A stretch of DNA of 64,000 nt from Pyruvatibacter mobilis (GTDB taxonomy: Bacteria; Pseudomonadota; Alphaproteobacteria; CGMCC-115125): assembly GCF_012848855.1 (NCBI RefSeq), contig NZ_CP051630.1, positions 1,529,501 to 1,593,500 of the forward strand, read 5' to 3'. The translations under genes and the position numbers were made by a program. Below, one piece after another: positions 17,003 to 64,000 of the stretch (the first letter of the stretch is position 1; every line of letters begins with the position of its first letter). The notes under the pieces are model-generated. The model did no database searches, had not been told where the DNA came from, and saw only the letters and a program-made list of their open reading frames with translations.

Positions 17003-17353
17003 CTATTCGTCGATGAATATGGTGAGTTCGTCCGGATGGGCAAAGCCGAGGGCGGCGCGGGCGCGTTCATCCAGCAGGTCGGGGTCGAGGCTCTCGGGCC
17101 GCAGCAGCGCCACGTCACGCTCCAGCCGGGCGCGGATCTCCTTGGCGGACTGCACCTTGGCCGCCATCGCCGCGCGCTCCTCGCGCAGCTCCACAAGGCG
17201 CAGCAGCCCGTTGTCGCCGTGGACGGCGTGCCAGGCGAAATAGGCCATGATGCTGAGGCAGGCGACAGGCACGATGGCGCGGCCGAGACGGGCCCTCAGG
17301 CCATCGGTTTCAGCGGCGTAGGTGCCGGTGCGAATCGTATCGTGAAGTCTCAT
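17003..17353 (-). CDS. ftsB: FtsB/DivIC-type septum formation initiator
   Basis: 116 aa bitopic protein. A short cytoplasmic N-terminus and one transmembrane helix (about residues 26-44) precede a coiled-coil (LLRLVELREERAAMAAKVQ onward) and a conserved end (LLDERARAALGFAHPDE). FtsB bridges FtsL and FtsQ in the divisome. Position upstream of pdhA and near eno is common in alphaproteobacteria. The 5' region carries a dense set of GANTC methylation sites (17363-17436), which suggests cell-cycle control. Confidence 0.9.
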   Translation of the reverse strand: MRLHDTIRTGTYAAETDGLRARLGRAIVPVACLSIMAYFAWHAVHGDNGLLRLVELREERAAMAAKVQSAKEIRARLERDVALLRPESLDPDLLDERARAALGFAHPDELTIFIDE

Positions 17354-17362
17354 GAGCTTAAG

Positions 17363-17436
17363 GAATCATACTTGTGATTCTCATGGCAAGCCTAATTGAG
17401 TCAGTCTCTTATGCTGATTCTGTGAGAGACAGAATC
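17363..17436. promoter_or_regulatory. Cluster of five GANTC (CcrM) sites upstream of ftsB
   Basis: GANTC occurs at 17363 (GAATC), 17376 (GATTC), 17398 (GAGTC), 17416 (GATTC) and 17432 (GAATC). Two pairs are arranged as inverted repeats: GAATCA-N6-TGATTC (17363-17380) and GATTCTGT-N5-ACAGAATC (17416-17436). It lies between divergent ftsB and the GNAT gene. Regulation by CcrM/GcrA is inferred from the alphaproteobacterial paradigm. Confidence 0.6.
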
Positions 17437-17528: not shown

Positions 17529-18023
17529 ATGTCCGTCACCATCCGCCCTGCCCGCCCCGGCGACCATGATGCCATCTGGATGATCCTTGAGCCGGTGATC
17601 CGCGCGGGTGAAACCTATGCCCTGCCGCGTGACATGAGCCGCGAGGCGGCCCTCGCCTACTGGACCAGCGTGGAGAAGGCGACCTTTGTGGCCGAGGATG
17701 CAACAGGCGTGCTGCTGGGCACCTATTACCTGAAGGCCAACCAGATGGGCGGCGGCGCGCATGTGTGCAATTGCGGCTATGTGACCGCCGAGGCTGCGCG
17801 CGGCAAGGGGGTGGCGGGGATGCTGTGCGCGCACTCCCAGGACGAGGCGCGGGCACGCGGCTTTACGGCCATGCAGTTCAATCTCGTTGTCTCCACCAAT
17901 GAAGGCGCTGTGCGGCTGTGGCAGAAGCTCGGCTTCGAGATCGCTGGCACACTGCCCAAGGCCTTCGACCACCCGGCGCAAGGGCTGGTAGATGCGCATG
18001 TGCTCTACAAGCTGCTTGTGTGA
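17529..18023 (+). CDS. GNAT-family N-acetyltransferase
   Basis: 164 aa from ATG 17529, with a purine-rich AAGAGAGA upstream; a TTG at 17523 would add two residues. The GNAT fold is indicated by the N-terminal VTIRPARPGDHDAIW, the acetyl-CoA loop EAARGKGVAGMLC and the C-terminal STNEGAVRLWQKLGFEIAGT. The ending resembles proteins that acetylate small amines or antibiotics, but the substrate cannot be named. It is transcribed away from ftsB and is followed after about 100 bp by the hydrolase gene. Confidence 0.88.
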   Translation: MSVTIRPARPGDHDAIWMILEPVIRAGETYALPRDMSREAALAYWTSVEKATFVAEDATGVLLGTYYLKANQMGGGAHVCNCGYVTAEAARGKGVAGMLCAHSQDEARARGFTAMQFNLVVSTNEGAVRLWQKLGFEIAGTLPKAFDHPAQGLVDAHVLYKLLV

Positions 18024-47331: not shown

Positions 47332-47368
47332 CCCCGCAGGCACAGCCGTTCCCCACGCCCCCACCCGC

Positions 47369-47428
47369 ATCCCTCCGGCTTGACCGGAGGGCCCACTCGC
47401 TTCCGACGTGGGCACAGCGCTCGCGCCT
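47369..47428. repeat. Class A element, 5' half only
   Basis: Palindrome CCCTCCGG-N5-CCGGAGGG (47371-47391), then CCCACTCGCTTCCGACGTGG and GCACAGCG. It starts 38 bp after the lexA stop. Confidence 0.75.
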
Positions 47429-47450
47429 GCTCTTTGGTCTTTCCCCAAGC

Positions 47451-47542
47451 GTCACCCCGCGACCTGATCGCGGGGCCCAGAGCCCCTCTGCACGGCCGGA
47501 GTGAGCCTCCCTGGATTCCGCGATCACGTCGCGGAATGACAG
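47451..47542. repeat. Class B paired-palindrome element
   Basis: GTCA-CCCCGCGA-N5-TCGCGGGG (palindrome 47455-47475), a 40-bp spacer, TGGA-TTCCGCGA-N4-TCGCGGAA (47516-47535) and TGACA. The ends GTCA and TGACA are inverted. The left palindrome resembles the left arm of composite copies 2 and 3. Confidence 0.75.
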
Positions 47543-47583
47543 TGTGTGGTCTTATCCCTCCGGCAATGGCGGCGGGACGCGGT

Positions 47584-47775
47584 CTAGATCTGCCTGAGCG
47601 CTGTCTCGATTCCCTGCAGGCGCCGGTCCAGTTTTTCGAGCTGGCGGGAGCGGTCCGAGAGGTCGCTGAGATGCGCCTCGATGCGCAGCAGCACCTGCGT
47701 CATGTCGTGGGCCGGATCGCCTGTCAGTTGGGGCGGCGGCGGCGTGCGGCGGCGAAACCAGGAAAACAGTGCCAT
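47584..47775 (-). CDS. Small coiled-coil protein downstream of comEC
   Basis: 63 aa from ATG 47775 (MALFSWFRRRTPPPPQ). An N-terminal hydrophobic/arginine segment is followed by a heptad-like helix (VLLRIEAHLSDLSDRSRQLEKLDRRLQGIETAL cut across about residues 29-61). It lies 38 bp after the comEC stop on the same strand. No family recognised; the frame upstream of 47775 is comEC antisense-frame sequence. Confidence 0.55.
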   Translation of the reverse strand: MALFSWFRRRTPPPPQLTGDPAHDMTQVLLRIEAHLSDLSDRSRQLEKLDRRLQGIETALRQI

Positions 47776-47813
47776 GGGTCTTCTCCCCTGCGGGTCCACG
47801 CGGATGACAAGGC

Positions 47814-63501: not shown

Positions 63502-64000
63502 ACGACGAATACCCCCAAACCGATGCCCTGCCCCTGTTCGGTCAACACGCCAATCAGGGCCGCCAGGGCCGCGGCAACAGCCGCAAAAATCAATCCATCC
63601 ACCCGGTCCAGCACGCCCCCATGCCCGGGAATGAGATGGCTCGAGTCTTTCACATGTGCGTAGCGTTTCAAGGCGGATTCGGCGATATCGCCGATTTGGG
63701 CGATGACCGCGATTCCGCCGCTGATAAGGGCCAGCAACACTGCCACATCCAGATCGAGAATGAGCGACGTCGCAGCCCCCGCCACCGCCGCACCGGCCAT
63801 ACCGCCCAGCAGGCCCGACCACGTCTTGGCCGGGGAGAAGCGCGGCGCCAGCTTCGGCCCGCCTATGGTGCGGCCCGCCACGAAAGCCATGATGTCGGTC
63901 GCCCACACCACCGCCAGCAGCCAGTATAGGGTCAGCATGCCCCACTCGCCGCCGCTGCGCAGCCAGACGATGGCGATGCAGGGCAGCAGGATGTAGGGAA
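63498..64000 (-). CDS. cdsA: CDP-diglyceride synthetase CdsA, C-terminal part (runs off the window)
   Basis: At least 167 codons; the 5' end is beyond the right edge (frame open at 64000). Helices and the family signature SPAKTWSGLLGGMAGAAVAG followed by KRYAHVKDSSHLIPGHGGVLDRVDGL are diagnostic. It makes CDP-diacylglycerol from phosphatidic acid and CTP. First visible gene of the leftward envelope operon. Confidence 0.95.
   Translation of the reverse strand, partial: PYILLPCIAIVWLRSGGEWGMLTLYWLLAVVWATDIMAFVAGRTIGGPKLAPRFSPAKTWSGLLGGMAGAAVAGAATSLILDLDVAVLLALISGGIAVIAQIGDIAESALKRYAHVKDSSHLIPGHGGVLDRVDGLIFAAVAAALAALIGVLTEQGQGIGLGVFVV

Follow-up and report, generated by a model that had tools for sequence, protein, structure and literature searches.

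In Caulobacter crescentus, the division genes ftsZ and mipZ need conserved GANTC sites in their promoters for full CcrM-dependent transcription (excerpts of PMC3708114 and PMC3973325), and CcrM activates both genes via these sites (excerpt of PMC3708114). The two promoters carry one or two GANTC sites, and the comparison in the same excerpts covered five close relatives; ftsB is absent from Table 1 of PMC3973325. The sigma-70 cofactor GcrA is reported to contact both m6A-marked DNA and region 2 of sigma, and at methylated promoters to increase the affinity of polymerase and the formation of open complexes (excerpt of PMC7403470). A class-wide motif ranking led to the conclusion that cell-division targets are not universal outside Caulobacterales; in this work the ccrM promoter is a core GcrA target in Alphaproteobacteria (excerpt of PMC7987155). 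The excerpted text of that study names no ftsB, divIC or septum, and its figure or data files may list ftsB. Several GANTC sites are likewise packed into a short regulatory region in repABC clusters and at MucR-shielded promoters (excerpts of PMC11514494 and PMC5172544).

We analyzed a 64,000-nt stretch of the single-contig, 3.33-Mb genome of Pyruvatibacter mobilis (hereafter the window; G000:C1:1529501-1593500), in which a GANTC cluster precedes ftsB. This locus resembles the ftsZ and mipZ promoters, but differs from them in having two sites fixed in a core, together with three or four more, and in being conserved across many families. As at the GcrA-dependent methylated sigma-70 promoters (excerpts of PMC3667746 and PMC7403470), CcrM and GcrA are both present and GANTC lies in the predicted promoter, and an open-complex cofactor would suit the presumed weak -10 of ftsB; unlike at those promoters, the ftsB core is also found in CcrM-positive genomes without detectable GcrA. 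The ftsB promoter shares its richness in GANTC with the ccrM promoter: in the 19 readable ccrM loci (of 20, comprising the one here and 19 from further genomes; that of G042 was excluded because the DPPYN anchor is missing), 2-8 GANTC sites lie at -160 to +15, many in the layout TTGAC-N2..5-GANTC-N4..7-GANTC. Compared with these ccrM promoters, the second site at ftsB is displaced by another 2-3 nt and forms part of the TGATTC at the presumed -10 region. The repABC and MucR-shielded cases, in contrast, concern replication operons or species-specific genes, with no fixed core at a division gene in the excerpts of PMC11514494 and PMC5172544.

This kind of promoter is already known. A search of article texts did not find ftsB as a CcrM target, a fixed double core or its spread over many families. 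In the literature searched, one paper names both ccrM and ftsB; in an excerpt of it, anoxic Sphingopyxis shows ccrM 7-fold and ftsB 3.5-fold down, with no fall in the other fts genes except ftsN and ftsW, a correlative observation (PMC6472365).

The ftsB locus and its GANTC sites

The ftsB gene adjoins pdhA, and the order eno / ftsB / pdhA is frequent in relatives. In addition to the Pfam match (Table 1), its product matches the FtsB model of NCBIfam at E=4.9e-4, under the cut-off. About 170 bp separate ftsB from a divergent GNAT gene, and this intergenic region is A+T-richer than the window (GC 0.57 vs 0.655). A preliminary description had counted five GANTC sites within 17363-17436; all five were read there, spanning -83 to -14 relative to the ftsB ATG, and the count rises to six in 105 bp when a site 17 nt inside ftsB is included.

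Table 1 Features of the ftsB upstream region, in window coordinates
Feature	Position	Strand	Remarks
ftsB (divIC family) coding sequence	17003..17353	-	116 aa; Pfam PF04977 DivIC E=4.7e-15
Sixth GANTC, inside ftsB start	17332..17336	.	4/4 Phaeomarinobacter genomes
Predicted ftsB core promoter	17360..17389	-	TTGCCA 17389-17384, 18-nt spacer, TTCCTT 17365-17360 preceded by TGA; comparative footprint
Inner GANTC, GATTC on ftsB strand	17363..17367	-	9 nt before ATG; overlaps presumed -10 region
Second inner GANTC, GAATC on ftsB strand	17376..17380	-	within presumed -35/-10 spacer
Outer GANTC (GAGTC)	17398..17402	.	2/4 Phaeomarinobacter genomes
Outer GANTC (GATTC)	17416..17420	.	4/4 Phaeomarinobacter genomes, middle base differs
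Outer GANTC (GAATC)	17432..17436	.	4/4 Phaeomarinobacter genomes, middle base differs in one
Inverted repeat GATTCTGT-N5-ACAGAATC	17416..17436	.	arms not conserved in congeners; judged incidental
Divergent GNAT acetyltransferase gene	17529..18023	+	Pfam PF00583 E=1.9e-11

GANTC is rare in this genome. The window holds 44 sites, against 254 (sd 15) expected from dinucleotide shuffles, and a 400-kb sample of the genome holds 379 (0.95/kb), compared with 1.3-4.0/kb for seven palindromes matched to it in composition. The densest 74 bp of that sample contains at most 3 sites; at the GANTC rate of the window, five in 74 bp anywhere in the 3.33 Mb has a probability of about 3e-4. Among 21 intergenic stretches longer than 120 bp, predicted in the window by an ad hoc ORF heuristic, 18 have no GANTC, one has 1, one has 2 and the ftsB/GNAT stretch has 5. 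The earlier statement that the other long intergenic regions contain none or one was therefore nearly right, the exception being 47332-47813 with two.

The nearest named relative of this genome is Candidatus Phaeomarinobacter (L033). In four Phaeomarinobacter genomes, the upstream GANTC sites at -83, -67, -27 and -14 are in register in all four and that at -49 in two. Two of the sites, those at -83 and -67, differ among these genomes in their middle base yet remain GANTC, and the CTGACT flanking the site at 17398 is kept in 4/4 even though GANTC itself is present there in 2/4. Intergenic sequence farther upstream aligns poorly. Conservation of the site inside ftsB may be driven by the protein, since it also encodes a conserved T/L-I-R. 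The extended motif YGAKTCK fits three of the six sites (17332, 17376 and 17416) and does not fit the inner -10 site, TGATTCC.

Two inverted repeats formed by four of the sites had also been described. Both exist (GATTCTGT/ACAGAATC and GAATCA/TGATTC), but they do not appear to matter: GANTC is itself palindromic, which makes such pairs cheap, and a hairpin or operator was rejected because the arms at 17416/17432 are not conserved in three congeners that retain both GANTC sites.

The genome encodes both proteins on which the comparison with Caulobacter depends. CcrM is full length, a 397-aa ORF matching N6_N4_Mtase at E=3e-72 and RAMA at E=1.5e-18; the NCBIfam CcrM model matches at 1.8e-192, aligned over 2-350 of 350, yet under its curated cut-off. 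GcrA matches PF07750 at E=1.6e-55 and 7.9e-56, and the NCBIfam GcrA model at 1.4e-57, again under the curated cut-off. The preliminary description had named two findings that would refute its reading, a missing CcrM homologue and a lack of site conservation in related genomes; both were looked for and neither was observed.

Distribution of the double core in Alphaproteobacteria

We compared the ftsB upstream region across a class sample of 152 Alphaproteobacteria genomes, of which 138 had an ftsB match and 135 ftsB starts were analyzed. The three excluded genomes are G022 and G049, in which the match falls at a contig end, and G151, with E=7.8e-4. G017, G149 and G036 each have a second match that was not counted; in G017 and G149, this second ftsB-like match is read through one stop codon. 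A RAMA match was taken as CcrM (107 of 152 genomes), "no RAMA" meaning no match at E<=0.001. The analyzed starts comprised 96 from CcrM-positive and 39 from RAMA-negative genomes, some of the latter being incomplete bins.

GANTC conservation extended from the genus to far beyond it. At -120 to +15 of ftsB, GANTC occurs at 18.1/kb in the 96 CcrM-positive genomes versus 7.6/kb in the 39 RAMA-negative ones, and seven control palindromes of equal composition occur at 2.2-3.2/kb over the same interval of the CcrM-positive genomes. The density of GANTC is 2.2/kb at -250 to -121 and 1.5/kb in the early gene. A recurring layout was seen in relatives: TTGAC is followed at about 5 nt by GAATC and, after a further 6-8 nt, by (G)TGATTC, which stands some 10 nt before the ATG. 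The inner pair of sites thereby forms a double core, TTGAC-N5-GANTC-N6..8-TGATTC, at about that distance from the ATG. Two gaps between TTGAC and GANTC dominate: 54 pairs are separated by 16-17 nt and 34 pairs by 5-6 nt.

The double core is present in 44 of 96 CcrM-positive and 2 of 39 CcrM-negative genomes (Fisher p=1.9e-6), an association confounded by phylogeny if, as may be the case, the CcrM-negative genomes come from few clades. In 100 dinucleotide shuffles, it arose 0.02 times on average and at most once. The two double-core genomes without RAMA, G028 and G099, have a completeness of 86% and 93%, respectively. By the relaxed definition, 40 of the 96 CcrM-positive genomes have no core, and neither do 49 of 80 named loci, including those of Stappia, Roseibium, Pannonibacter, Kaistia, Afifella and Methyloligella. 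Parvibaculum and Tepidicaulis are among the carriers of the core. The core follows CcrM; it is widespread in distantly related Alphaproteobacteria and is not universal.

The two sites of the core differ in how far their sequence varies. The middle base of the spacer GANTC is A in 33, C in 6, T in 4 and G in 3 cases, a variation that points to selection for recognition by CcrM and not for one fixed word. The -10-side site, the most conserved element of the core, is GATTC in 63 of 71 aligned cases, with a fixed TG before and a T after it, and it occurs without a spacer GANTC in 12 of the 96 CcrM-positive genomes. These two properties of the -10-side site would also be expected of a conventional promoter with a strong or extended -10, or of an unknown factor's site, that contains GATTC by chance and for which methylation is a bystander. 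We consider this explanation unlikely, as the spacer base is other than A in 13 of 46 cases, additional GANTC sites accumulate around the core, unlike the seven control palindromes, and genomes without CcrM hardly ever have the double core.

Quite unlikely, too, is that another protein such as MucR shields the sites from CcrM, so that control is exerted by hypomethylation or by the protein alone. MucR-shielded promoters in Caulobacter and Sinorhizobium have two to four GANTC sites (excerpt of PMC5172544), and the A+T-richness of the ftsB/GNAT region would suit shielding of this type. However, according to the same excerpt, the functions under hypomethylated promoters generally differ from one species to another, whereas the core is common to many families, where it stays with one gene and keeps its spacing from TTGAC and from the ATG.

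The core is also nearly specific in its location. The strict pattern TTGACN{3,7}GANTCN{5,9}TGATTC gave 54 matches in 49 of the 152 whole genomes, and the reversed pattern gave 3. Among the 54, 41 are on the ftsB strand no more than 250 bp ahead of that gene, and 2 precede ccrM. No match to the strict pattern was found in the P. mobilis genome, because its -35-like word is TTGCC and not TTGAC.

The preliminary description had left the regulated gene as ftsB or the divergent GNAT gene, and neighborhoods were examined at 110 loci, 30 unnamed and 80 named (one genome of the named set overlaps the unnamed set, L004 = L033, and L058 and L059 are two contigs of one bin). The relaxed double core is present at 46 of these loci, where the upstream neighbor is enolase in 24, GNAT in 2 and another gene or none in 20. 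Since GNAT so rarely adjoins the core, we assign it to ftsB. That the sites serve the GNAT gene is highly improbable: the outer GANTC sites do sit between both genes, but the core is fixed in position relative to the ftsB ATG, and GNAT was rejected as the target. A chance or lineage-specific cluster without function can practically be dismissed, for although GANTC triplets occur elsewhere in this genome, often within genes, such a reading is refuted by the class-wide comparison and opposed by the low genome-wide probability of the cluster and its conservation in the genus and the class.

A putative methylation-gated ftsB promoter

The most likely reading of the cluster is a methylation-gated, near-leaderless ftsB promoter, acting via CcrM and, in this species, probably GcrA. 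Taking the ATG adenine as the start, TTGCCA would lie at -36 to -31 and TTCCTT at -12 to -7, with TGA at the extended -10 place; transcription of ftsB would probably start at or within a few nucleotides of the ATG. The class-wide spacing of the core fits this TTGAC/-10 arrangement. A scan of the ftsB upstream region for consensus sigma-70 promoters and terminators found nothing, which indicates that the -10 is weak. This negative scan also counts against the reading, as do the TTGCC of P. mobilis, the absence of a strict match from its genome, the CcrM-positive genomes and named loci that have no core, and a distribution of the core that does not track GcrA.

In the mechanism that we propose, the ftsB promoter itself includes both inner GANTC sites, one in the spacer and one (TGATTC) at the -10 region. 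Given a -10 that is poor by consensus, RNA polymerase alone should open this promoter slowly. CcrM would methylate both inner sites, about one helical turn apart, creating a substrate for an m6A reader, which in this species would most likely be GcrA, and the outer sites would probably add affinity. The methylation state would shift at fork passage and again when CcrM acts, so that ftsB output would be linked to replication. Retention of the inner pair at the start of ftsB in many distant Alphaproteobacteria points to a coupling of division to DNA replication by way of this promoter.

FtsB belongs to the FtsQLB complex, which licenses septal wall synthesis, making ftsB a plausible control point.

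The distribution of GcrA bears on the reader step. Among CcrM-positive genomes, the double core is present in 34 of 75 with PF07750 GcrA versus 8 of 16 without it. The eight genomes that keep the double core at ftsB with no recognizable GcrA are G032, G019, G137, G056, G116, G123, G089 and G140. A second GcrA model, NF050816, was run on 16 CcrM-positive genomes (14 of the 16 without PF07750, including all eight with the double core, and 2 of 5 with a weak match); none scored above the cut-off, the best E being 0.047. Retention of the core in such genomes makes the GcrA step less certain than the CcrM step. Either GcrA has diverged past recognition in them, or another reader or the polymerase itself may sense the mark. 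Separately, L311 (G004:C28:43700-45200) contains a short ORF whose similarity to GcrA is confined to the C-terminal region that binds sigma; the DNA-binding region is missing.

In a broader interpretation, which we offer tentatively as possible but doubtful, an ancestral, nearly gene-specific, CcrM-gated ftsB promoter would couple the divisome activator complex to replication-driven methylation across much of Alphaproteobacteria, with GcrA-less lineages using another m6A reader or RNA polymerase directly. If true, ftsB would be a deep core CcrM target outside Caulobacterales. CcrM and GcrA are conserved while their targets are described as widely rewired, and the ftsB core would give the regulon one of its few constant targets. 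Often the sole copy in its genome, the core offers a concrete, mutable target for studying the coupling of replication to septum activation, and where the core and CcrM occur and GcrA is not detected, a second m6A reader becomes a testable question.

Other GANTC clusters in the genome

The P. mobilis chromosome was searched for clusters of three GANTC sites spaced by at most 30 nt each, with GAATC or GATTC as the first or last site. About 19 places were found, of which only three are dense: those before ftsB, ccrM and dnaB. Most of the remaining places are GANTC triplets, several of them within genes. The region directly before ccrM has six GANTC sites (L002:495-615; G000:C1 about 2163756-2163876), and also contains GTTAACCTTGGTTAAC, which we take to resemble a CtrA-type palindrome. 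Directly before the replicative helicase gene dnaB, five sites lie in 61 bp (L138; G000:C1:1766982-1767042).

Three further sites in 28 bp were noted within ftsQ at its 3' end, with ftsA beginning about 60 bp later (L115:1501-1528; G000:C1:698743-698770), and three in 73 bp close to where the window ends (63643-63715), within a predicted reading frame. GC skew over 20 sampled stretches of the genome gave no clear switch that would place the origin and terminus. The first 20 kb of the contig (L339, G000:C1:1-20000) has a GC content of 0.54, compared with 0.61-0.66 in the other sampled stretches, and is richer in GANTC (38 per 20 kb); this segment is possibly of foreign origin.
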